Origin: Microcoleus sp. FACHB-672
Lineage (GTDB): Bacteria; Cyanobacteriota; Cyanobacteriia; Cyanobacteriales; Oscillatoriaceae
DNA: 64,000 nt
Direction of reading: 5' to 3'
Assembly (NCBI RefSeq): GCF_014695725.1
Contig: NZ_JACJOU010000020.1
Span: 124,001 to 188,000 of the forward strand
Shown: one piece after another, positions 16,452 to 38,888 of the stretch
Numbering within the stretch: the stretch's first letter is position 1
Layout: each line of letters starts with the position of its first letter
The notes under the pieces: generated by a model
Seen by the model: only the letters and a program-made list of their open reading frames with translations
What the model was told of the DNA's origin: nothing
Databases searched by the model: none
Position numbers and translations under genes: made by a program

Positions 16452-17057
16452 ATGGCATTTACGCTTCCTGAATTACCGTATCCCGCCGATGCCTTAGAAT
16501 CAGGTCATATGTCGGCAGAAACTTTTTCGTTCCATCACGACAAGCACCACGCAGCTTACGTGAATAACCTCAACAAACAAATCGAAGGGACGGAACTCGC
16601 CGACAAGTCTCTTGAAGAAATTATTACCGCAACTTTTAAAGATTCCAGCAAAGCCGGCATCTTCAACAACGCCGCCCAAGTTTGGAACCACACCTTCTTC
16701 TGGCATTGCATGAAACCAGGTGGAGGCGGTCAGCCCTCCGGCGCACTTGCCGATAAAATCAACTCAGACCTCGGCGGCTACGACAAATTCAAAGAAGAGT
16801 TCAAAAACGCTGCCACCACCCAATTTGGTAGCGGTTGGGCTTGGCTGGTTTTGGATAACGGCACTCTGAAAGTCACCAAGACTGGCAACGCAGAAAACCC
16901 CCTTGCAAACGGGCAAACTGCACTGCTGACTCTGGATGTGTGGGAACACGCCTACTATCTCGACTTCCAAAACCGCCGGCCTGACTTTATTCAAAACTTC
17001 CTCGATCACCTAGTTAACTGGGATTTCGTTGCCGAAAACTTGGCTAAAGCTTCCTAA
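16452..17057 (+). CDS. sodB: Iron superoxide dismutase
   Basis: Converts superoxide to oxygen and hydrogen peroxide in the cytosol. The 201-residue protein shows the Fe/Mn-SOD signatures: [10 protein letters not shown] (first metal His and gateway), [11 protein letters not shown] (second His), FGSGWAWLV, and the [11 protein letters not shown] motif with the final Asp and His ligands. The [14 protein letters not shown] context and [10 protein letters not shown] fit the iron type of cyanobacterial SodB. The ATG at 16452 is preceded by AGAGAGG ten bases upstream; a TTG at 16443 has no spacing from that site and is rejected. A strong terminator follows. Confidence 0.96.
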
Positions 17058-17077
17058 GCGAGTTATTTACTGACTTG

Positions 17078-17106
17078 AAAAACCCGGTTTAAAAAGCCGG
17101 GTTTTT
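17078..17106 (+). terminator. Rho-independent terminator of sodB
   Basis: AAAAACCCGG (17078-17087) pairs perfectly with CCGGGTTTTT (17097-17106), ending in a T run 21 bp after the stop codon. Confidence 0.92.
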
Positions 17107-17664
17107 ATCAGTTTAGTTGAGATAAGCCAATTAGCTGAAGGCTGCCGGTGTTCAACATAAAACTTTTCTTAAATCAATGCATTTATATAGCATTACTATT
17201 GAAATTGTAAAAAAAATGGAATGCCTGCATCTTAGAAAGAACCAAACGCGTTCGAGTAGCGAAGGCAATCCCGGAAGATATCACGAATGATTGAGAATTA
17301 ATATATTAGTAAAAATTAAAATGAATAAAATATCAATTATTTTTTATTAAAAATAATAAGCCAATTCTCTGTAATTATAACGAGTTACATAAGAAAGTAA
17401 AATTTCTGTTTCTTTAGTTTAAATCTACTTTGTTTGTAAATTAATTAAACTTAACGTCGTTTCTCAATCGGCTGTATTTCTGATTTAATACAAAAGGTGT
17501 ACGCTGAGTAAAGCTTCATCTAGGAATTTTATCAGGGTCAACCATAGAGGATGAAGCAAGCTAGTGGCAATCTCACTCCTTTTTCTAGATTTAAGACTAG
17601 GTTAAAAACTCATATAATACTTAATCTGTCAATAACCAAACCTGAAACTAGCAACCCCTTTAAG
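17107..17664. other. AT-rich intergenic region after sodB
   Basis: Very AT-rich, especially 17285-17470. A short hairpin-forming A/T palindrome lies around 17338-17362. I found no coding frame with a ribosome binding site before 17665. Confidence 0.4.
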
Positions 17665-17871
17665 ATGAATAGCAAAGAACTGGCCCAGTACATTGAAGCC
17701 ACCGGCAGCATCTCTAAACCTTGGCTGCTGGTACAGTTGCGCTTGAAAAAATTGCAAGAAAGCAAAGACACCCTTTCGCCTGAAGATTATGCCAAAGAGC
17801 TAGCCGATATTCACCAAGATTTGATGAAATTAGGGGAGTGGTGGGTTGGCATCGAAGACGAAGCTTTCTGA
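17665..17871 (+). CDS. Small conserved-looking protein of unknown function
   Basis: A 68-residue protein beginning MNSKELAQYIEATGSI, mostly helical, acidic towards the C-terminus (ADIHQDLMKLGEWWVGIEDEAF). I do not recognise a named family. The frame extends upstream to a possible start at 17551, but the added 38 residues are poorly composed, so I chose the internal ATG. No clear Shine-Dalgarno sequence precedes either. It sits 161 bp before ppk1 on the same strand. Compact composition and lack of rare codons suggest a real gene. Confidence 0.5.
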   Translation: MNSKELAQYIEATGSISKPWLLVQLRLKKLQESKDTLSPEDYAKELADIHQDLMKLGEWWVGIEDEAF

Positions 17872-18032
17872 ATGTGAAGGCAAGTTTCTCAGAGAGGGCA
17901 GCGCATAGCAAAATTTAGTAGAGGCAATTAGCAATTTTAAATAAAAAATAAATATAAGCCTCTTGAATTCTTCCTCCTTGCCAAGCGCTTTCAGCCCACA
18001 GCTATTTTGAATGCCCATATCCACTCAAAATC

Positions 18033-20171
18033 ATGACCACAACCCAGACAACTACAGACGAAATCAACCTGAGCGATCCGCAATACTACTTAAGCCGCGA
18101 ACTAAGCTGGCTGGAGTTTAACAACCGAGTCTTGCGCGAAGCCCTCGATCCCCGGACGCCACTGCTAGAACGTCTGAAATTTTTAGGCATCTTCAGCGCT
18201 AACTTAGATGAGTTCTTTATGGTTCGCGTCGCTGCCCTAAAACAGCAGGTAGAAGCGAAAGTCAGTAAATTATCTGCCGACGGGCGTTCGCCGCAAGATC
18301 AACTAGATGTGATTTGCCAACGACTCCGCCCGATGGTAACGGAACAGCACCAGCATTTTGAGCGGGAAATCCGACCGCTTTTAGCAAACCACAAGATACA
18401 CATCTTGGAATATGTAGACTTAAATCAAGAAGAACGACTGTATCTGCAACGGTATTTTGAGGAGCAAATCTTTCCCGTCCTGACGCCCTTAGCAGTTGAT
18501 CCGGGTCATCCATTTCCTTATATCTCTAACCTCAGCCTGAACCTGGCAGTTGTGGTAAAAGATCCGGACACCGAAGAAGAATTTTTTGCCAGAGTCAAAG
18601 TGCCTAAGGTTTTGCCCCGGTTTGTCTCTTTGCCGGCAGCCGAAAGAAGCAGCGAAACTGCTTTTCTGTTTATCTCCCTTGAGCAGGTGATCGCCCATAA
18701 TTTAGAATTCCTGTTTCCCGGCATGAACATTCAGGAATATCACCCGTTCCGAATTACCCGCAATGCGGATTTGGAAGTGGAAGAAGACGAGGCGGATGAC
18801 TTGATGCTGGCAATTGAGCAGGAATTACGGAAACGCCGATTTGGTGGATCGGTTGTACGGATGGAAATTCAAGCCGCCATGCCGATACCTGTGCAGCAAA
18901 TGCTCAGAGAGGAGCTTTCTCTGGCTGAAAGTGATGTTTACGAAGTCGAGGGTTTGCTAAGTTTGGGGGATTTGATGTCTTTTATGGCTTTGCCCCTGCC
19001 AGAACTTAAAGATCCCCCGTGGACGCCGGTGGTGCCCCCTCGCTTCCGCCGGCTGAGTGAACCCCATGTGGAACACTCGAAAGTAGATAGCGACGAGGGA
19101 GAAGATATATTCGCACTAATCCGCCAGCGAGATTGGCTGCTGCATCACCCGTATCAATCGTTTGCCGCAACAGTGCAGCGCTTTATCACCCAAGCTGCCC
19201 ACGATCCAGCAGTGTTGGCAATTAAAATGACACTCTACCGCACTTCTGGAGATTCCCCCATCGTCAACGCCTTGATCGCGGCGGCGGAAAATGGCAAACA
19301 GGTGGCGGCTTTAGTGGAACTGAAAGCCCGGTTTGATGAAGAGAATAATATCCACTGGGCGCGGAAGCTAGAAAAAGCCGGTGTTCATGTGGTTTACGGT
19401 TTGGTGGGGCTAAAAACGCATACTAAAGTTGCGATGGTGGTGCGGCGAGAGGAAGATCGGATGCGCCGGTATGTCCACATCGGCACCGGCAACTATAATC
19501 CGAAAACTGCCCGGATTTATACAGATTTAGGACTGTTAACCTGCCGAGAAGAGTTGGGGGCAGATTTAACAGATTTGTTTAATTACTTAACCGGCTACTC
19601 GCGGCAGCGATCGTACCGCAAACTACTCGTCGCGCCGGTGAATATGCGCGAACGCATGATTTCACTGATCCGGCGCGAGATCGAACACTGCCGCAACGGT
19701 CAAACAGGCCGCATTGTGGCCAAAATGAATTCCCTGGTAGACCCACAAATTATTGCCACACTTTACGAAGCATCTGGTGCCGGCGTGCAGATCGATCTGA
19801 TTGTGCGCGGGATGTGCTGCTTGCGCCCCGGATTGCCTGGGGTGAGTGAAAATATCCGCGTTATCAGCATTGTCGGTCGTTTTTTAGAACACTCGCGAAT
19901 TTATTACTTCAACAACCGGGGTCAAGAAGAAGTCTACACCGGCAGCGCCGATTGGATGCCCCGTAACCTCAACCGGCGCGTTGAAGCGATCGTGCCGGTG
20001 GAAGAACCGGAGATTGTCAAAGACCTTGAAGAAGTTTTGGGAATTATGCTGGCAGATAATCGCCAAGCCTGGGATTTACAGCCCGATGGCAGCTACATCC
20101 AGCGGCGTCCTACAGAAGAAGGCAACGAGCAATCCGCCCAGAAAATCTTGATGGAAAACGCGATGCAGTAG
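18033..20171 (+). CDS. ppk1: Polyphosphate kinase 1
   Basis: Reversibly transfers the gamma-phosphate of ATP to a growing polyphosphate chain. The 712-residue protein has the PPK1 layout: N-terminal helical domain (YYLSRELSWLEFNNRVL, then SANLDEFFMVRVA), head domain, and two C-terminal phospholipase-D-like domains. The phosphohistidine is in GLKTHTKVAMVVR, followed by YVHIGTGNYNPKTARIYTDLGLLT. A second conserved histidine is in FLEHSRIYYF. ETYTGSADWMPRNLNRR-type sequence near the end (here EEVYTGSADWMPRNLNRR) is diagnostic. ATG at 18033. A long inverted repeat follows the stop. Confidence 0.97.
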   Translation: MTTTQTTTDEINLSDPQYYLSRELSWLEFNNRVLREALDPRTPLLERLKFLGIFSANLDEFFMVRVAALKQQVEAKVSKLSADGRSPQDQLDVICQRLRPMVTEQHQHFEREIRPLLANHKIHILEYVDLNQEERLYLQRYFEEQIFPVLTPLAVDPGHPFPYISNLSLNLAVVVKDPDTEEEFFARVKVPKVLPRFVSLPAAERSSETAFLFISLEQVIAHNLEFLFPGMNIQEYHPFRITRNADLEVEEDEADDLMLAIEQELRKRRFGGSVVRMEIQAAMPIPVQQMLREELSLAESDVYEVEGLLSLGDLMSFMALPLPELKDPPWTPVVPPRFRRLSEPHVEHSKVDSDEGEDIFALIRQRDWLLHHPYQSFAATVQRFITQAAHDPAVLAIKMTLYRTSGDSPIVNALIAAAENGKQVAALVELKARFDEENNIHWARKLEKAGVHVVYGLVGLKTHTKVAMVVRREEDRMRRYVHIGTGNYNPKTARIYTDLGLLTCREELGADLTDLFNYLTGYSRQRSYRKLLVAPVNMRERMISLIRREIEHCRNGQTGRIVAKMNSLVDPQIIATLYEASGAGVQIDLIVRGMCCLRPGLPGVSENIRVISIVGRFLEHSRIYYFNNRGQEEVYTGSADWMPRNLNRRVEAIVPVEEPEIVKDLEEVLGIMLADNRQAWDLQPDGSYIQRRPTEEGNEQSAQKILMENAMQ

Positions 20172-28292: not shown

Positions 28293-31200
28293 TTATCCTG
28301 ACTGGTTGCCGGCAACTTGCGACTCAACATCTGATGCGCCACTCAGGTTAATGCGTAGTGTTTGCTCCTGTCGTTTGACTGCTGCTAAAAGCTCAGCATT
28401 TTGGAGAATCACGCCCACTTGATTATTAAATATTTGTAAATATTGCTGATCGCTTTGATCAAAACTTGCCTGGAAATAATCAGGCACGACATTCGCCTGA
28501 ATCGGCGCGTGTATTGAAGGCTCACCCGGTTTAATTTTATTGATTAATTGAGTGACAGCAATCAACTCACCGTCGGGATTCCAAACCGGCATACAGAGCA
28601 AACTGCAAGTGCGGTAGCCGGTGGCGCGATCAGTTTTCTTCGCCATGTCCGAATCCGGGTAATCATATAAATCAAAAGGAATATTTAGCGGCACCCCCAT
28701 CTCTGCCACTTTGCCGGCATAACCTTGTCCCACACTCACCCGCAGTTCCTTCATCGAACCGTCACCAAAAGGAATTCTTGTCCACAGCTCGTTTGTCTCG
28801 CGATCCAGTAACCAAAGCGTGCTGCGATCTGCATTCATCAATTCTTTCGCAGCTTCCATCACGCGTTTTAGGATCGAATCGAGTTCTAAACTGCTTTGAG
28901 AAACCGAGCGAGTTGCTGCCATGAGTGCTGCCGCCACCCGCTGTCCTCTCGCTGTTTTATGATAAGAGCGGAAGCTTTCCAAAATCATTTGAATTAGGGG
29001 AGCATTTTCTGCAAATCGTTCTTCATCTAGTTGAGTAAAACCTTCTGGCTCAATTTGTTCAGACAAAGGTGACGTCCGATTATAAAAACGCTTTAATTTG
29101 TTAATTAACTGAATAACTCCAATTAAATTTCCCTGATCATTTAACAGGGGCAATGTCAGCATTGTATAAGTGCGATAACCATTTTTTATGTCTTGTTCTT
29201 TGGCAGTAGTAGAGCGGGGATCGTCATAAAAGTCGTAGGGAATATTAATAATTTGTTTGCTAGCTGCGACTTCCCCTACAATTCCTTTATCTGCCGGCAG
29301 TCGAATTTCTAAAGATCGATCCCCTTCCGCTTCAGCAATTATTGACCAAAATTCATTTCGTTCTTCATCAAATAGAAAAATCGTTGTGCGATCTGCACTC
29401 AATGATTTACCCATTTTTAAAGTAATTGATCGCAAAGTTGCGTCAAGAATATCATCAAACCCTTGACCGTCCATGACTTGATTAAGCATTGCTAATGTTT
29501 GGCTGACAACATTTTGCGGTTGATTTTCTGCTTGTTGTTTCAGGGCAGCAAACTGTTTAGCATTTTGCAAAGCAACTCCCACTTGAGAGTTAAAAATTTG
29601 CATATATTTTTGACTATTGGCATCAAAACTATCCTCGAAACATTCAGGCGCTTCCGGCCAAGTTTCGGGATCATATTCAAGATGCTCACCCGGTTTTCGT
29701 TTATTAATTAATTGCGTCACCCCGACTAATTCACCTTCAGGACTCCAAACCGGCATACACAGTAAACTGCAAGTGCGGTATCCTGTTTTTTGGTCAGTTC
29801 GCTGGGCGGTTTCTGAGTCAGGGTGATTGTACAAATCAAAGGCAATATTTAAAGGTTCGCCAGTAGCAGCAACTTTGCCGGCAAATCCTTGTCCCACTCG
29901 CACGCGCAGTTCCCGCACAGTCCCATCTTCAAAGGTAATTTTTGTCCACAATTCATCGTTTTCAGAGTCTAGTAACCAAAGCGTGCTGCGATCCGCATTC
30001 ATCAATTTTTTAGCGGCTTCCATCACCCGCGTGATAATTTCTTCCGAATCTAGACTACTTTGAGAAACGGAACGAGTAGCTTCTGTGAGGGCTTCCGAAG
30101 CTTGCAATCTTTGAGTTAACTTATAACAAGACTGGCATCTTTCTAAAATTCGTTGCAGTGCCGGCGCATATTCAGCAAATTGCTGTTTATCTGCTTCTGT
30201 AAAACCTGCTTCTGCAATTCTTTCGACAAACAAATCGTTGGGATTATTCGGTTGTTTGAGTTTATTCACCAACTGAACGAAGGCAAAAATATTTTCTTTT
30301 TCGTTCAACAAAGGTGAAGTAAACTCATTATAAATGTGGTAGGCGGTTCTTTTATCCTGTTCCTGAGCAACTCCGGAATACCAATCTTCTGATAAATCAG
30401 CGGGAACATTGACTGCTTGCTTATAAATAGTGACTCGACCGGCACTTGGATTATTTGCCAATATTTGTATCTTTGTAGAACTTATACTGGCTGTTCTGGC
30501 AATCACTGACCACAATTCATTTTTATCTTTATCAATAAAAAAGATAGCCATGCGATCAACGCTCATTAACTCGCCCAACTTCAGGATAATCGAACCCAGA
30601 ATTTCGTAAAGAATATCATCAAAATCTTTCCCCTCCATGCCGCTGAGCATCGACATGAGTTTGTGTTCTTGATTAGCAACCAGTTGCTGAAAGCTAGGTT
30701 GCAGAATTGCTAGAGCTTTGTTTAACCAAATCCAGTTAAAAACAGCCCCATAAATGCGGTTATAAGCCTTGAGGGTTCCCCCCTCTTTTACGACTAAGCC
30801 AGAAAGCCGCAATTCCATCTGTTCAAGACTTTGATCAGCGGCAATTTCACCACGCTGTAAAATTTGCTGGTAAAGTTTTAGTAGGGCTTCTGTGCGGTCT
30901 CCACTTCTGAGCAGCCGGTCGCGAATTGTCTTGAGATGCGGGGGTTCGTCTTGAGCTTCCCAATTCTCAATCAAGCGAGTTTGCACAACGTTTTCCACCC
31001 ATGCTTCGGGATTTTTGATCAATTTACCTTCTGCATTCTCAAGAATAAGTTTGCAAAGCTTTTGGGTGAGAAACGGTTGGCCGCCGGTCCAGTCTAAGAC
31101 AGCTTCTAGAACAGCTTCAGGATGGCTAATTTTCCCTTCAAAACCTTGAGCAAGTGGTTGAGCTTCATCAATTTCAAAGCCGTGCAATTCAATAGCGCGA

Positions 31201-31817
31201 CCAATATTAAATGGAGTGTAGTTTTTATCTTTAATTAAATCTGATGGACTCGCAACTCCCAGCAATGCAAAGGTCAGCCGGTCGTATTCATTGCAGGCGC
31301 GAATAAAGGCAAAAAAGTCATAAGTTCGGAAATTTAAGCTAAGAATGCTATCAATTTCATCGATAAAAATAACAATTTGTTCACTGACAGAATCAAGCAA
31401 TACTTGTTCAATAAACTCACTCAAGCACTGCACCGGCGGCAAAAACTCGCGATCTCGCAACCAAGACCTTAAATTAATCTGAAGGTGAAAACTTGTCACC
31501 AGGCGTCTCATCAAACCGGCATACCACTGCTGCGGCGTGATATCCTGGCTACCAATTTTCGTCAGATCGATTGCCGCACAAGCAACGCCTTCCGCTTGCA
31601 GCCGGTGCATTGTTCGCACCCGCAAGCTGGTTTTACCCATTTGTCGCGAATTAAGCACATAACAAAACTCACCGGCTTTTAACCCTTCATAAAGGTCTCG
31701 ATCAGCTTGCCTGACGACATAAGTCGGGGCATCAAGGGGTAAATGCCCGCCTACTTTGTAGCGATAGTTTGAGTTTGGTTCTTCATCTAACACGGTTTCT
31801 GGTTTTTGCGAAAACAT
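28293..31817 (-). CDS. AAA-type (AAA_35-like) NTPase with four GAF domains
   Basis: A 1174-residue protein. Residues about 25-370 form an AAA-like NTPase with Walker A in [10 protein letters not shown] (about 57-66) and Walker B in [11 protein letters not shown] (about 150), of the type that begins with [17 protein letters not shown] (AAA_35-like). Four GAF domains follow at about 390-560, 585-755, 790-955 and 975-1140. They alternate: GAF1 resembles GAF3 (FDDILxxxLxSI, then DRxxIFxxD) and GAF2 resembles GAF4 ([35 protein letters not shown]). No kinase, cyclase or effector domain is seen, so the output is unknown. GAFs lack bilin Cys-His motifs. ATG at 31817. The next upstream same-strand gene also has an AAA_35-like module. 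Confidence 0.85.
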
Positions 31818-32148: not shown

Positions 32149-34023
32149 TTAACTTGAGGAAATTTTGTTTAGACGATCTCGGAAATACTGACGATATAAA
32201 TCGAAACGCGGTGTTACCTCATTTCCCCGCAACTGCACTAACCCTAAACTGTGTAATTTAAACGCCGGCACAGATTCTAATTCAATCGGTTCGTTGGTTA
32301 CAACTACTTTAGCGAATGCTGCCGCTAAATTTGGGTGCTGTTGGAGATTCCATAAGTGCCGGCGCAAATGATCACCATAAATTCCTGCTTCTGTGGGGGC
32401 AATTTCTGCCAGTTGCGTTAAGGTGAGTTGCTGCCCAGCAATGTGATAAAGCGCTAAGCGGACTAGATAAGGATGTCCTCCCACAATAGTCATGAGTTGT
32501 TTAACCTCGCTTTCCCCCCAATTCAGTCCATGCCGGCACGCCAAGTCAAACACTTGATCCGCGCTAAATTCCGACAATTCTATCGGCAAACCCACATTAA
32601 ACGGTGATTGATTGATATCCAGAGGAATGTAAACTTCCGTTGAGTGAACAACGACTAAGCGCAGTTTTTCCCAAACATAGCCATCATTCGCCCCATATCC
32701 CGCTTCCTCATACCAAGCACGTAATAACCCAAAAAAATCATCGGCAATTTTGGGATAGTGAAAAACCCGATCAATTTCATCTAAACCGAGGACAAGGGGA
32801 CTATCTGTTTCCGGCAATAAACAATCTTCAAAGAAAGCGGTACAGTTATCTTTACTGCCGTAAGTATCGCTCCAATAATCATCAACTTGATAAGGCAGCC
32901 GCAACTTTCTGCTAATTTTGCCACAGAACCACTGTAAAAGTTCTTTAAGGTTCGTAAAAACTGCCGTATCGGCGTGTTGAAAACTTAGAGGAACGGTGCG
33001 ATATCCCTGTTCTTTTGCTTGATACAGAATTCTCGCCATTAATGACGTTTTGCCCATTTGCCTAGGTGCTTTAATCCGAATTAAACATCCGGGTTGCAAA
33101 ATTTCTTTATAACATTGCGTTTCACAGGGAACGCGCTCAACGTAAAATGCAGAAGCAAGACGCACTTGACCACTTGGTAACTCAGGTTCGGCAACCGGCG
33201 AGGGTGGAGCATTCGGGTTGAGGGATGGGGAGGTGGAAATTGAGGAACTGCCGACACTTTCCCACTCTTCAATTTTATCCGGTTGTCCCTTTTCAACACC
33301 CTCTGCCAATTGCTTGAGAACGTCTCCTACGATCCTAGGAGTGTCTGTCGGCGAAACCCACTCACTCTGCACAGTTCCGTGTAAGTAGCTTTGCAAGTCG
33401 TGATTTAGCGACAAATTGGGAGGAAAATTAATCCGAATCGGTATCACAACAGGCTTGCTATTGTGGCGAGAGTCCCGCAACTGTCGCGCCCGCTGCAACT
33501 CTTCAATTACCATTTCACTCACGGCTGCTTGTGGGGAAAGTAGTAGTAAAAAACAGTCACAATCTTTGAGTTGTGAGTCAAGCTGAGAAAGCCAATCTTG
33601 TGCCGGCTGAATAGAACCGGGAGAACCCACTCCTAAATTCGTAGTAAATGCTTTATGTCCAGCCGCTGAGATCGCTTCACAAAATTGCGCCGCTAAAGAC
33701 GAATCTGGTTCTTGGCTGCGATAGCTGATAAAAACTTTTTTAACCGCCAGACTAGCGGGTTTTCCTTGTCGCTCGATGGCTCTTTCAAGCGCTCCTTTTA
33801 CCTTTTTTTTGGTAACTTTTTCTCCTAAAACGTCAGAAAGCTTTTGCCATAACTTATAACCAACATATTTTTCTATATATTCAGGGTTAACTGGGTAAAT
33901 TTCCTCATACGTTTGTCCTTGCCAAGAGCCGGTGAACACTTCTCTTTCTAGATCGTTGAGGTGCTTGCCGGTGCTGGCATAAATTAAGTTATCTGCAAAT
34001 TCTAAGGCTTCTTTACAATCCAT
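32149..34023 (-). CDS. TIR-domain protein with N-terminal helical/HTH region and AAA-type NTPase
   Basis: A 624-residue protein. Residues 1-88 resemble the N-terminal HTH-like domain of cyanobacterial STAND/vWA-MoxR-associated proteins (FTGSWQGQTYEEIY, then KLWQKLSDVLGEKVTKK). Residues about 95-245 form a TIR domain (KKVFISYRSQEPDS, CDCFLLLLSPQAAVSEMVIEEL); aligning SEMVIEEL with the classic SxW-x3-EL places the NADase glutamate at the second E. Residues about 280-600 are an AAA_35-like NTPase with [15 protein letters not shown] (Walker A) and VLGLDEIDRVF (Walker B). The layout suggests a regulated NAD-cleaving or signalling effector, possibly in defence; that is inference. ATG at 34023. Confidence 0.85.
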   Translation of the reverse strand: MDCKEALEFADNLIYASTGKHLNDLEREVFTGSWQGQTYEEIYPVNPEYIEKYVGYKLWQKLSDVLGEKVTKKKVKGALERAIERQGKPASLAVKKVFISYRSQEPDSSLAAQFCEAISAAGHKAFTTNLGVGSPGSIQPAQDWLSQLDSQLKDCDCFLLLLSPQAAVSEMVIEELQRARQLRDSRHNSKPVVIPIRINFPPNLSLNHDLQSYLHGTVQSEWVSPTDTPRIVGDVLKQLAEGVEKGQPDKIEEWESVGSSSISTSPSLNPNAPPSPVAEPELPSGQVRLASAFYVERVPCETQCYKEILQPGCLIRIKAPRQMGKTSLMARILYQAKEQGYRTVPLSFQHADTAVFTNLKELLQWFCGKISRKLRLPYQVDDYWSDTYGSKDNCTAFFEDCLLPETDSPLVLGLDEIDRVFHYPKIADDFFGLLRAWYEEAGYGANDGYVWEKLRLVVVHSTEVYIPLDINQSPFNVGLPIELSEFSADQVFDLACRHGLNWGESEVKQLMTIVGGHPYLVRLALYHIAGQQLTLTQLAEIAPTEAGIYGDHLRRHLWNLQQHPNLAAAFAKVVVTNEPIELESVPAFKLHSLGLVQLRGNEVTPRFDLYRQYFRDRLNKISSS

Positions 34024-34490
34024 ATTGCCGGCTGAATTGAAGAATTTATTAATCTAAATTATAGAATTCACGTCATCCATCAGGCAAGGTAAAGAGCGAG
34101 TGACAGTGGGGCTTTTCCGTTTCAGTTTTGTCTGACTCTGTCTAGATCGCGCTCCGCAAGGTTGCTGAGCCTTGGCGCTTGCCGGTTGTACCGCGATTTT
34201 AAACCCTGCTTCAAAGATACTGCTTATTTAACTCAAACAGAGGTTTTTTGGTAATTTCACAAGTTTTTATGAGGTTTTATGAGGTTTTACGGAGTGAAAG
34301 CAAAAGGTAGAAAATTTTCTTGCCTAAAATTCTGAGATTTTCTGGTTACAATCTTGTGAACTCTGAACCATACTAAACAAAGTAGGAAAGCCAGATTCCG
34401 GAGTTAAAAAATGAAGAAGTGCTAAAAAAAGAGCAATAAGGGTGTGTTGAAATTAGGCGTTCAGGTTGCTGTTTATTCAGAGTTATAAAG
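34024..34490. other. Divergent intergenic region with short tandem repeats
   Basis: It separates the minus-strand TIR gene from the plus-strand HD gene, so both promoters should be here. TATGAGGTTT is repeated around 34267-34290 (two full copies and one degenerate copy). No coding frame or RNA gene is apparent. Confidence 0.45.
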
Positions 34491-35462
34491 ATGTTTAATC
34501 CCACAGACGTACTTATTAAAACTTTCGCAGAAAGCTTACAAACTTGCTACCGTAAAACTTACGGAAATCTTAAGCCGAAGTATGCTGAAATGCTCGGCTG
34601 GGTTGCCAGTCTCGCTTTAGAAAACATTGCCAATAGCAACGCCCTTTATCATAACGTTGAACACACCGTTATTGTTACCCTGGTAGGGCAAGAAATCTTA
34701 CGAGGCAAGCAGCTTCGGGAAGGAAATGTTTCCTGTGAAGACTGGTTGCACGCGATTATTTCTTTATTGTGCCATGATATTGGCTACGTTAAGGGGCTTT
34801 GCCGGCAAGACAGAAGCAAAGAAAGATTATTTGCAACCGGCGTAGGCGATGGCATGATTTCTCTGCCTCCGAGTTCAACAGATGCCAGTCTCACTCCCTA
34901 TCATGTAGATCGGGGAAAACTGTTTATCGAGGAGCATTTTTCTGGGCACGATTTCATTGATGTTGAAGTCATTAAGCGTAATATTGAGCTGACGCGCTTT
35001 CCCGTGCCCAACGATGCAGATCATAAAGATACCATTGACTTTCCAGGCTTAGTTCGGGCAGCCGATCTCATCGGGCAGTTGAGTGATCCGCGCTATTTAG
35101 ACAAATTGCCGGCACTCTTTTATGAATTTGAAGAAATCGGCACTAATAAAATCTTGGGTTATCGCCATCCTGGGGACTTGCGTGCCGGCTTTCCTAACTT
35201 TTTCTGGAATGTAGTGGATTCTTACATTCAAGAGGGAGTGCATCATTTAGAGGCAACCTATGCCGGCAAACAAATTATTGCCAGCTTAAGAATGAATGTG
35301 TTTGTCGTTGAATATGAACTGCTGTTAAATAATCTTCAGATGTCATTCGCCCCACAAGAGACATTAAGGGGTTTTGCGGAACAAGAGGGCAGGCACCGCT
35401 TGGGGGAGACTAGCTTATCTTGTGAACAGCGACGGGAACATCCCATTTTTGTAAATAGGTAG
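34491..35462 (+). CDS. HD-domain metal-dependent phosphohydrolase
   Basis: A 323-residue soluble protein with an HD fold. YHNVEHTVIVTL supplies the first metal histidines and SLLCHDIGYVKGLC the HD pair near residue 100. Later histidines and an aspartate (PNDADHKDTIDFPGLVRAADLIGQL) complete the site. The substrate is unknown; the arrangement is close to cyanobacterial stand-alone HD proteins rather than to HD-GYP c-di-GMP phosphodiesterases, because no GYP triad is present. ATG at 34491; no clear Shine-Dalgarno sequence. A long perfect palindrome lies 134 bp after the stop. Confidence 0.82.
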   Translation: MFNPTDVLIKTFAESLQTCYRKTYGNLKPKYAEMLGWVASLALENIANSNALYHNVEHTVIVTLVGQEILRGKQLREGNVSCEDWLHAIISLLCHDIGYVKGLCRQDRSKERLFATGVGDGMISLPPSSTDASLTPYHVDRGKLFIEEHFSGHDFIDVEVIKRNIELTRFPVPNDADHKDTIDFPGLVRAADLIGQLSDPRYLDKLPALFYEFEEIGTNKILGYRHPGDLRAGFPNFFWNVVDSYIQEGVHHLEATYAGKQIIASLRMNVFVVEYELLLNNLQMSFAPQETLRGFAEQEGRHRLGETSLSCEQRREHPIFVNR

Positions 35463-37739: not shown

Positions 37740-38888
37740 TTACGCACTTTTTCCGGCCCTTCTTTCATTATCTTCTAGAGTTTGTAAGATTTCCAGGTAT
37801 TTTGAGGACTGGAATTGAACGGTTTTTACAAAACTCTTGAGACTATGATATTTTAGCGGAATAGATCCTTGGAAATTGCCTTCTTCTAAGTTTTGTTCCA
37901 AATAAGTTTCTAAGTCCCGGACGCTGTTTTCAATGACAGCCATCACCTCATTGACTCGCTGTTCTACCAATCCTTTAACAACGGCTTCCAGTTCGAGTTG
38001 CTTTTTAATGGTGTCACTAATTCTTCCTTCTGTATCCTCAGTTCCCAAAGGAAATTCTGGAATATTTAAGAAGCCGTAGTTACAACTATCATCCTCATCA
38101 TCATCCTCAAAGGCATCTTTGCTGTTTAGTGGCAGCGCAAGATAGTCTTCTGAAGAAGGGTTATACGGAGCTTTTAAATCTATTGCTGTAGGTTCATCCT
38201 CATCCGCATCGTCAGTAATATCCCGACCTTTTTGCAGGTATTGATAGTAAGGTAGCAGACAGTCAACGATGATTCCCGCTGTGCCGATCTGCTTATCTGG
38301 CTCATCCAAGCAGGCTGCTGTTCCGTACAATCTAAATTCTAAATCTTCGGGTGTTTCGCACGAATAAAACAAGGCTCTGACTATCTCATCAAATTCTAGC
38401 GAATCAAGCGTCGCCCAGTCTTGCGTGCTGTAGGCAAATTTATAATTCAGGGCGGAAAATACCAGAACTTTTGCTCGCCGGAGGGTTGAATCTCTGGCAA
38501 CTTTAAATTTTAAATCGTATAAATCGTAGGGATATTTTACTCCTTTTTTGAGTTGTTTTAATTGCGTGCGTATCCGTTTTCTTGATGCCAAATTTTCTGG
38601 ATACAGTTTATTTAATTTTTGAATCAACGTATTGGCTAGCATGAAATACTGAACTTTTTTATTCAGTTTTTTGACAACTTGAATCAGAACCGATTTAAGC
38701 TGCCCGTAAGTTGGGGCAATTTCGTGCAGGTCTTTAATTAAGGTGGATAATTGAATAGCTTCGAGCTTTTTCAGGTCATTCTCCCATGTATTTTTGCTAG
38801 CGCATAACAGGAGTTTTTTGACTTTGATTAAATTTTCAATACGTTCTAAATCTTTGACAACGTCATCTACAAATTGTATCGTTTCCAT
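37740..38888 (-). CDS. Unrecognised soluble helical protein with acidic central loop
   Basis: I do not recognise a family. The 382 residues are mostly helical and Leu/Lys-rich at the N-terminus (LIQKLNKLYPENL, QLKQLKKGVKYPYDLYDLKF). A strongly acidic low-complexity linker follows around residues 225-285 (DDADEDEP, FEDDDEDDS). A C-terminal helical part with EAVVKGLVEQRVNEVMAVIE may be a coiled coil. There are no membrane segments and no nucleotide-binding motif. ATG at 38888, with GGAG about seven bases upstream. It stands alone, between two hairpins and a repeat-rich region. An adaptor or assembly role is conceivable, with no direct support. Confidence 0.65.
   Translation of the reverse strand: METIQFVDDVVKDLERIENLIKVKKLLLCASKNTWENDLKKLEAIQLSTLIKDLHEIAPTYGQLKSVLIQVVKKLNKKVQYFMLANTLIQKLNKLYPENLASRKRIRTQLKQLKKGVKYPYDLYDLKFKVARDSTLRRAKVLVFSALNYKFAYSTQDWATLDSLEFDEIVRALFYSCETPEDLEFRLYGTAACLDEPDKQIGTAGIIVDCLLPYYQYLQKGRDITDDADEDEPTAIDLKAPYNPSSEDYLALPLNSKDAFEDDDEDDSCNYGFLNIPEFPLGTEDTEGRISDTIKKQLELEAVVKGLVEQRVNEVMAVIENSVRDLETYLEQNLEEGNFQGSIPLKYHSLKSFVKTVQFQSSKYLEILQTLEDNERRAGKSA

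Follow-up and report, generated by a model that had tools for sequence, protein, structure and literature searches.

What does a TIR domain do between a putative DNA-reading domain and a nucleoside triphosphatase (NTPase) in one bacterial chain, and what would tell such a protein when to act? The question is raised by a gene on the minus strand at 32149..34023 of a 64,000-nucleotide stretch of DNA from the cyanobacterium Microcoleus sp. FACHB-672 (contig NZ_JACJOU010000020.1, positions 124,001 to 188,000; hereafter the window). A first-pass annotation, made from the letters of the stretch, had suggested that it could be a compact defence protein with an unknown trigger. Comparative analysis indicates that it encodes one of the two proteins of a module conserved in cyanobacteria. 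The second protein resembles a cyclic-nucleotide sensor, and the promoter, shared with a divergent gene for an HD-domain hydrolase, carries a candidate operator of short direct repeats.

The open reading frame is genuine and encodes 624 residues from an ATG at 34023; the start methionine is aligned in 24/24 orthologues of the protein. Residues 1–85 (33769..34023, minus strand) form an N-terminal domain (NTD), a putative helix-turn-helix (HTH)-like DNA reader that is likewise aligned in 24/24 orthologues. Residues 95–225 (33349..33741, minus strand) form the TIR domain, and residues 283–615 (32179..33177, minus strand) an AAA_35 NTPase that we call type A. Pfam profiles scoring above cut-off identify the TIR domain as TIR_2 (residues 97–202, E = 1.4e-14) and the NTPase as AAA_35 (PF14516, residues 283–615, E = 3e-149, 496.8 bits); before residue 97 no Pfam profile exceeds its cut-off, and the VMAP-like identity proposed earlier for the NTD is plausible. 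In 24/24 orthologues the Walker A motif is unchanged, as are the residues DE of Walker B. The ratio of nonsynonymous to synonymous substitution rates (dN/dS), measured against two genomes of the same genus, is 0.02–0.07 for the NTD and AAA_35 and 0.13–0.16 for the TIR domain, and the gene is therefore under purifying selection. Among solved structures, no useful relative came up in sequence searches started from the window protein, from the HD protein, or from profiles of the HD protein and of the NTD. As had been annotated, the TIR domain is internal and no sensor repeats trail the NTPase: AAA_35 ends at residue 615 of 624, and the chain holds no C-terminal sensor of the Avs type.

The gene does not stand alone. 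In a protein search of 148 genomes, the source genome included and up to eight candidates scored per genome, at least 140 genomes gave a match to the window protein among the matches listed. Full-length relatives occupy at least 24 loci, 23 of them recognized by the match itself and one (G101) by its open reading frame; a further locus, L224 (G008), was found through a DNA pattern and encodes an NTD-TIR-AAA_35 protein together with both partners. The total of at least 25 modules is a lower bound for the 148 genomes. An HD-hydrolase gene is divergent from the TIR-AAA_35 gene in 23 of the 24 loci whose flanks were examined and in L224, that is, in 24/25; the sole exception, L057, starts at a contig end. 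A gene for an AAA_35-GAF protein follows the window-type gene in 21/24 loci and in L224 (22/25). Other neighbours in the 24 loci (the window and 23 others) are common only to close relatives. The neighbourhood comparison suggested by the first-pass annotation gives a mixed answer: the architecture recurs, and the constant partners, HD hydrolase and GAF NTPase, look like signalling-type genes, not housekeeping ones; a consistent link to defence did not emerge. Beyond the HD gene, L051 and L053 carry runs of eight and six related genes, respectively, for proteins of ~88 residues (cluster c3).

The next gene of the operon, at 28293..31817 on the minus strand, encodes P0002, a protein of 1174 residues with an AAA_35 NTPase of type B (residues 24–360) followed by four GAF domains, the first of them degenerate. 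Its best relative of solved structure is the GAF pair of the Anabaena adenylyl cyclase CyaB2 (PDB 1ykd, E = 1.8e-152); GAF1-2 and GAF3-4 are 53.6% and 60.1% identical to the CyaB2 GAF domains, respectively. PMC4411481 names Arg291, Thr293, Ile308, Asp356 and Asn359 as the contacts of CyaB2 with cyclic AMP (cAMP), and the corresponding residues were located in the partner by hand via local motifs. Four of these contacts (Arg, Thr, Ile, Asp) do not vary among 21/21 orthologues in either GAF2 or GAF4, where the fifth, Asn, is replaced by Thr or Ser. GAF3 has an invariant Arg and an invariant Asp, and its Asn, Ile and Thr are found in 20/21, 14/21 and 12/21 orthologues. The degenerate GAF1 has the Arg in 18/21 and the Ile in 13/21. 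GAF2-GAF3-GAF4 (approximately residues 570–1160; 28338..30110, minus strand) thus present CyaB2-like cyclic-nucleotide pockets with the cAMP contact residues characteristic of that type. Judged by its sequence, the partner is a cyclic-nucleotide sensor, with cAMP as the most likely ligand. Because its GAF domains are CyaB2-like and keep most of the cAMP contacts, the sensor missing from the window chain appears to be the product of the next gene, and the idea of a compact, self-contained protein is not supported.

Across the promoter, the divergent gene at 34491..35462 (plus strand) encodes an HD-domain metal hydrolase of the Npun_R2479 family (NF045583, E = 1.5e-141). For comparison we used 80 HD loci (1.27 Mb), the best 80 of at least 523. 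H58, H95, D96 and D192 of the HD protein are invariant in 34 sequences (the window and 33 of the 80 loci). Alignments were made on hand-picked sets comprising 14/23 HD proteins, 10 module proteins, and 22/24 NTDs with 7 relatives. The source genome holds four more HD paralogues that are 61–70% identical (G000 contigs C17, C6, C15 and C14; L182–L185).

The two divergent genes are separated by two candidate operators, both given on the minus strand. O1 (34259..34288) consists of three 10-bp direct repeats, AAAACCTCAT AAAACCTCAT AAAAACTTGT. O2 (34332..34347), AACCAGAAAATCTCAG, comprises one unit and a flanking half-unit and recurs in 19/25 modules. The consensus of the repeat unit is RAAANCTCAK (12.2 bits from 69 units). 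A strict two-unit pattern, AAANCTCAKNAAANCTCAK, which was derived from the module promoters themselves, has a single match in the 6.37-Mb source genome, at the window promoter, and none near the four HD paralogues. In the 80 HD loci it has 10 matches in 9 loci, each time ahead of an HD gene with a TIR-AAA gene opposite; in one locus, L102, that TIR-AAA gene is known only from an NTD-TIR fragment at a contig end. When a three-unit score was used, 24/24 orthologues exceeded the best of 200 mononucleotide shuffles each. Over the 148 genomes the strict pattern has 35 matches in 30 genomes, of which 21 (in 17 genomes) are at modules and 14 elsewhere, and a reversed-pattern control has 13. The spacing between O1 and O2 lies near multiples of 10 bp (p = 0.005 for 11 lineage values, near-identical loci having been merged by the analyst's choice), and a period of 10.5 bp fits equally. 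Sites of the NtcA or CRP type were considered as a shared control and rejected, since exact scans matched only L051 and L053 (NtcA-like) and L054–L056 (CRP-like) of 23 intergenic regions. The intergenic/promoter region of L052 contains a seven-base tandem repeat, CATTAGC.

The distribution of the array points to the NTD as its reader. Among HD loci without a TIR-AAA gene, 64/66 have a three-unit score of 15 or less (L067 and L074 reach 18 and 17, respectively); of 11 loci with TIR or AAA, ten score 19–21 and L089 scores 13. This scoring left out L097, L110 and L111 of the 80 loci, which have no upstream sequence. In L089, from Moorena bouillonii, the HD gene and GAF partner are kept, what reads as a LuxR-type HTH stands in place of NTD and TIR domain, and the usual repeat array is gone; 11-bp direct repeats, CTGACTTATCA / CTGACTTGTGA / CTAACTTTTAG, are present there instead (L089:8841-9889). 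We examined 13 of the 14 matches outside modules, leaving out G122:C9. In five cases another NTD gene is found no more than 1.5 kb away, where the density in HD loci predicts ~0.1 such cases; one match adjoins an HD gene, and the other seven resemble background. In L225 and L226, which are from one genus, the array is found ~50 bp upstream of an NTD gene whose product reads as NB-ARC- and TPR-like, and in L229 an NTD protein of 101 residues has it in its divergent promoter; L227 and L228 have another gene between array and NTD gene, so that only three of the five are placed as expected. The two NB-ARC-like genes (L225:3702-6250, 826 residues; L226:3884-6456, 834 residues) belong to genomes that also hold the TIR module. 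In L067 and L230 the repeats precede an HD gene without TIR, and the module resides elsewhere in both genomes (L065 and G018:C37); the HD gene is therefore suggested as a target regulated in trans. As far as sequence can tell, the divergent promoter carries a private operator that is tied to the NTD, and the NTD is its likely reader.

Tandem pairing of AAA_35 genes extends beyond the module. AAA_35 matches of at least 200 bits were assigned to class A (type A) and low-scoring ones to class B (type B), and a class A gene was counted as paired when a same-strand class B gene began no more than 3 kb downstream of it. In the source genome and ten relatives, mostly picked for holding the module, 38/53 class A genes are paired; ten of these pairs are the module itself, which leaves 28/43 without it. 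Other arrangements in these 11 genomes comprise one class B gene upstream on the same strand (the L157 fusion) and one upstream on the other strand. In 12 further genomes, 11/26 class A genes are paired against a chance expectation of 0.02, and other arrangements number 0; this count excludes G092:C1:254463, a C-terminal fragment from a type A gene that is broken. Overall, 49/79 class A genes are paired. L157:2217-4928 is a natural B-A fusion in one chain of 904 residues, and the region upstream of it bears 10-bp repeats of another sequence, of the TTCAGGTCAA type. A Pfam scan of 36 of 40 class A entries (fragmentary L171, L174 twice and L180 omitted) found TIR_2 in 8, a guanylate/adenylate cyclase domain in 7, GGDEF in 5, CHAT in 3 and a kinase in one; each of several HTH types occurred in two. 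WD40 was found in 16 of the 26 class B proteins scanned, out of 34 entries (one duplicate, L157 twice, L169 twice and L171 three times omitted). Outputs seem to belong to class A and sensors to class B. There is a hint that phased repeats may precede type A genes more widely: in 6/40 upstream scans, 0/30 shuffles scored as high.

Three further loci were noted. Upstream of position 5322 in L161, a perfect 11-bp triple repeat, TCATCGACTTT, precedes a TIR-AAA_35 gene whose product has a Cro-like N-terminus. In the source genome, a second tandem AAA_35 pair (L061:6499-12389; G000:C15) reads as two proteins, both among those scanned with Pfam: the first has a caspase-like CHAT-type N-terminus, AAA_35 and, at its C-terminus, a cyclase-like domain; the second has AAA_35 and WD40-like repeats. 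A third pair (L062:6888-10149; G000:C12) has overlapping genes, of which the first product reads as AAA_35 behind an HTH-like N-terminus and the second as AAA_35 ending in a vWA-like part.

A cAMP-gated, DNA-anchored NTPase pair that controls its own locus and the HD hydrolase would best explain this arrangement, and we give it slightly less than an even chance. The NTD of the window protein would bind the 10-bp repeat array in the promoter shared with the HD gene, and the partner, with its AAA_35 domain and four GAF domains, would bind a cyclic mononucleotide, most likely cAMP. Contact between the two NTPases would let the partner determine how the window protein assembles, or its nucleotide state, and the switch so formed would govern, whether up or down, its own operon and the HD gene. 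If the HD hydrolase is phosphodiesterase-like in its choice of substrate, it would remove the cyclic nucleotide and so complete a feedback loop. The TIR domain would serve as an assembly module, possibly with a NAD-consuming or signal-making output where Glu175 is kept. Sequence itself shows the module, the pairing, the operator, the GAF pockets and the Walker motifs; binding of DNA by the NTD, the cAMP ligand, the NTPase contact, the direction of regulation, the HD substrate and any TIR activity are inferred. In appearance the module comes closer to a signalling circuit than to an established weapon against viruses.

Several observations weigh against this proposal. The repeat unit was derived from the very orthologues whose scores are high, the margin over the shuffles is one point in L049 and L059, and 8/25 modules carry only a degenerate array without the strict two-unit pattern. 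For a STAND-type regulator (signal transduction ATPase with numerous domains), the repeats are strongly linked to the NTD and the HTH profile support is weak, generic HTH profiles giving weak matches to this domain. The LuxR-type replacement is a single locus (L089), the array is missing before other type A genes that begin like the NTD, and the correspondence between NTD residue 53 and the last base of the repeat unit amounts to ~3 changes on the tree, with L224 fitting poorly. L041 and L060 have no GAF partner nearby, L057 has a short AAA_35 partner, and class A genes are unpaired in 15/53 and 15/26 cases, 30 in total. As to the hydrolase, the phosphodiesterase profile PDEase_I matched 5/14 HD members, all below cut-off (best E = 0.0077; 12.3 of the 24.8 bits required for the first member), 69/80 HD loci are without the module (some being clipped by contig ends), and in a quick tree the HD proteins of the modules do not form one clade.

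The alternative that survives best concerns the TIR domain alone: the window protein would be a STAND-like transcription factor in which this domain is an oligomerization scaffold only, a reading that is compatible with the cAMP-gated pair and denies just the TIR chemistry. The annotation had set SEMVIEEL against the motif SxWxxxEL, and the profile alignment agrees, placing the second E (residue 175, codon 33499-33501) on the Glu of RUN1 and Cat1, which we take to be the catalytic residue there; the W of SxWxxxE is replaced by M. Position 175 is E in 18/24 orthologues and K, I, M or L in the other six, and the canonical TIR Glu is E in 9/15 TIR-AAA_35 relatives and not E in 6/15. The Glu immediately before position 175 is invariant in 24 orthologues. 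On a lack of the catalytic Glu geometry, which the annotation named as a refutation of its reading, the outcome is mixed: the window protein has the Glu, and 6/24 orthologues have another residue in its place. Loss of the Glu in some members fits a scaffold, as do the fast evolution of the domain, the insertions that precede its DW motif in some members of the family, the operator of phased repeats, and the scarcity of TIR_2 among other type A proteins (8/36). The Glu is, however, kept in three quarters of the orthologues, and the TIR domain, faster-evolving than NTD and AAA_35, is yet constrained, its dN/dS among close relatives pointing to purifying selection. An enzymatic function is possible for the window protein and unlikely as a constant role of the family, and we regard the pure scaffold as quite possible, if somewhat short of probable.

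Unlikely, in our view, is an anti-phage abortive-infection switch, in which the TIR domain would deplete NAD+ or make a signal upon cyclic-nucleotide sensing by the GAF NTPase, the repeats serving only for repression of a toxic operon, as in autoregulated toxin-antitoxin or Pycsar-like TIR systems. Such a role would suit the presence of Glu175 in the window protein and 18/24 orthologues and the cyclase, GGDEF, CHAT or TIR domains of other type A proteins; the absence of this Glu from 6/24 orthologues and 6/15 relatives, and the L089 version, which lacks the TIR domain yet retains the partners, speak against it. Relatives on 54 plasmid records, all at less than 60% identity, also count in its favour; against it, 50,697 phage records yielded none, and of 19 stretches of viral contigs that matched two peptide patterns none was confirmed. 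Weak, partial matches of the window protein to the Thoeris models ThsB1 (E = 2.2e-7) and ThcB4 (E = 1.2e-8, 34 of the 220 bits needed) likewise speak for such a role, but the pairing of ThsB with a ThsA-type partner that defines Thoeris was not found. P0002, the HD protein and the protein at 37740-38888 have no PADLOC match at 0.01. Among the ten window proteins scanned there is neither a cyclase domain, as the adjacent pyrimidine cyclase of Pycsar would require, nor a vWA or MoxR protein of the VMAP ternary system.

The wider neighbourhood gives a similar picture. A survey of 97 neighbouring proteins with PADLOC and Pfam (one per cluster, 150–1100 residues) matched 60 PADLOC families at 1e-10, 25 of which are listed; when 20 of the 97 were followed up, 15 had no match and three had a single weaker one (TPR, mad3 and PycC). 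One SNF2-helicase-like protein in L060 explains the matches to ZorD, DpdE and DrmD. An ATPase beside the HD gene (L041:2310-3602) matches HEC-01A (E = 1.7e-199) and AriA (E = 7.3e-47) as well as HEC-01B; by clustering, the same ATPase lies beside the HD gene in L042, hence in 2/24 loci, and this counts in favour of the abortive-infection role. With its 243-residue neighbour this HEC-01A/AriA-like ATPase forms a candidate defence pair (L041:2310-4263), and the same clusters are present in L042. Next to the AAA_35-GAF partner of L042, the protein at 16608-18266, probably a nucleotide cyclase, has a partial match to the Pycsar cyclase PycC (E = 2.4e-14). Because the strong candidate-defence matches trace to single neighbours, the defence link is confined to one lineage; a consistent defence island was set aside as a reading, the survey, made without a random-locus control, linking L041/L042 only. 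The anti-phage role proposed in the first-pass annotation is thus left without a phage or confirmed viral relative and without a consistent defence neighbour.

Decidedly unlikely is a reading in which an unlinked response regulator recognizes the repeats and the NTD is a protein-protein adaptor only. The resemblance of phased direct repeats to OmpR/PhoB-family sites and the weak HTH evidence for the NTD are set against a single strict site in the whole source genome, the low scores of 64/66 HD promoters without TIR-AAA, and an array that also precedes NTD genes of different architecture (L225, L226).

Like Pycsar with PycTIR, the cAMP-gated pair would tie cyclic mononucleotide sensing to a TIR protein; unlike Pycsar, it has no cyclase among the window neighbours scanned, its sensor resides in a second NTPase chain, and it comes with a DNA operator and an HD hydrolase. 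MalT-type STAND regulators combine an NTPase with a DNA-binding domain on direct repeats, as is proposed here; in the present case the NTPase is AAA_35, a TIR domain is internal and the likely sensor acts in trans. In plant sensor-helper pairs of nucleotide-binding leucine-rich repeat (NLR) proteins, two NTPases likewise divide an effector-type domain and a sensor between them; the present pair is of the AAA_35 family, bacterial, and fixed in gene order. The GAFab tandem and most cAMP contacts of Anabaena CyaB2 (PDB 1ykd) recur in the partner, where they are coupled to an AAA_35 NTPase and not, as in CyaB2, to a cyclase. The Avs and bNACHT STAND antiviral proteins (PMC10907252) share an NTPase switch with an N-terminal effector-type domain; here a second, paired NTPase carries the likely sensor, and a consistent defence context did not emerge. 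The VMAP/iSTAND ternary systems (Kaur 2020, PMC7159879) are also cyanobacterial and combine TIR, cyclase or caspase-like domains with NTPases, but the window neighbours scanned include no vWA-MoxR pair. The literature searched, which covered few subscription papers, showed neither an account of the module nor one of paired AAA_35 genes, and made no mention of PF14516 or Npun_R2479; the expectation that this is an undescribed and unusual TIR-NTPase system is in keeping with this.

That the pairs form a general class is somewhat less likely than not, and less likely than the mechanism proposed for this locus. Cyanobacteria would then hold a large class of split NLR-like switches, in which a type A protein, joining AAA_35 to a DNA reader at its N-terminus and in some cases to a TIR, CHAT, cyclase or GGDEF output, is encoded just upstream of a type B AAA_35 protein with a WD40, GAF or vWA sensor; the window would show a cAMP-sensing version on a private operator, with a TIR domain recruited to DNA and wired to second-messenger homeostasis. 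If the cAMP-gated pair is real, three genes and a 30-bp operator, with cAMP as the likely ligand, would constitute a readily testable bacterial counterpart of paired sensor-helper NLRs, and the TIR domain would act inside a DNA-bound regulator and not as a suicide enzyme. It would also give a function to AAA_35, a large and little-studied family of cyanobacterial NTPases.

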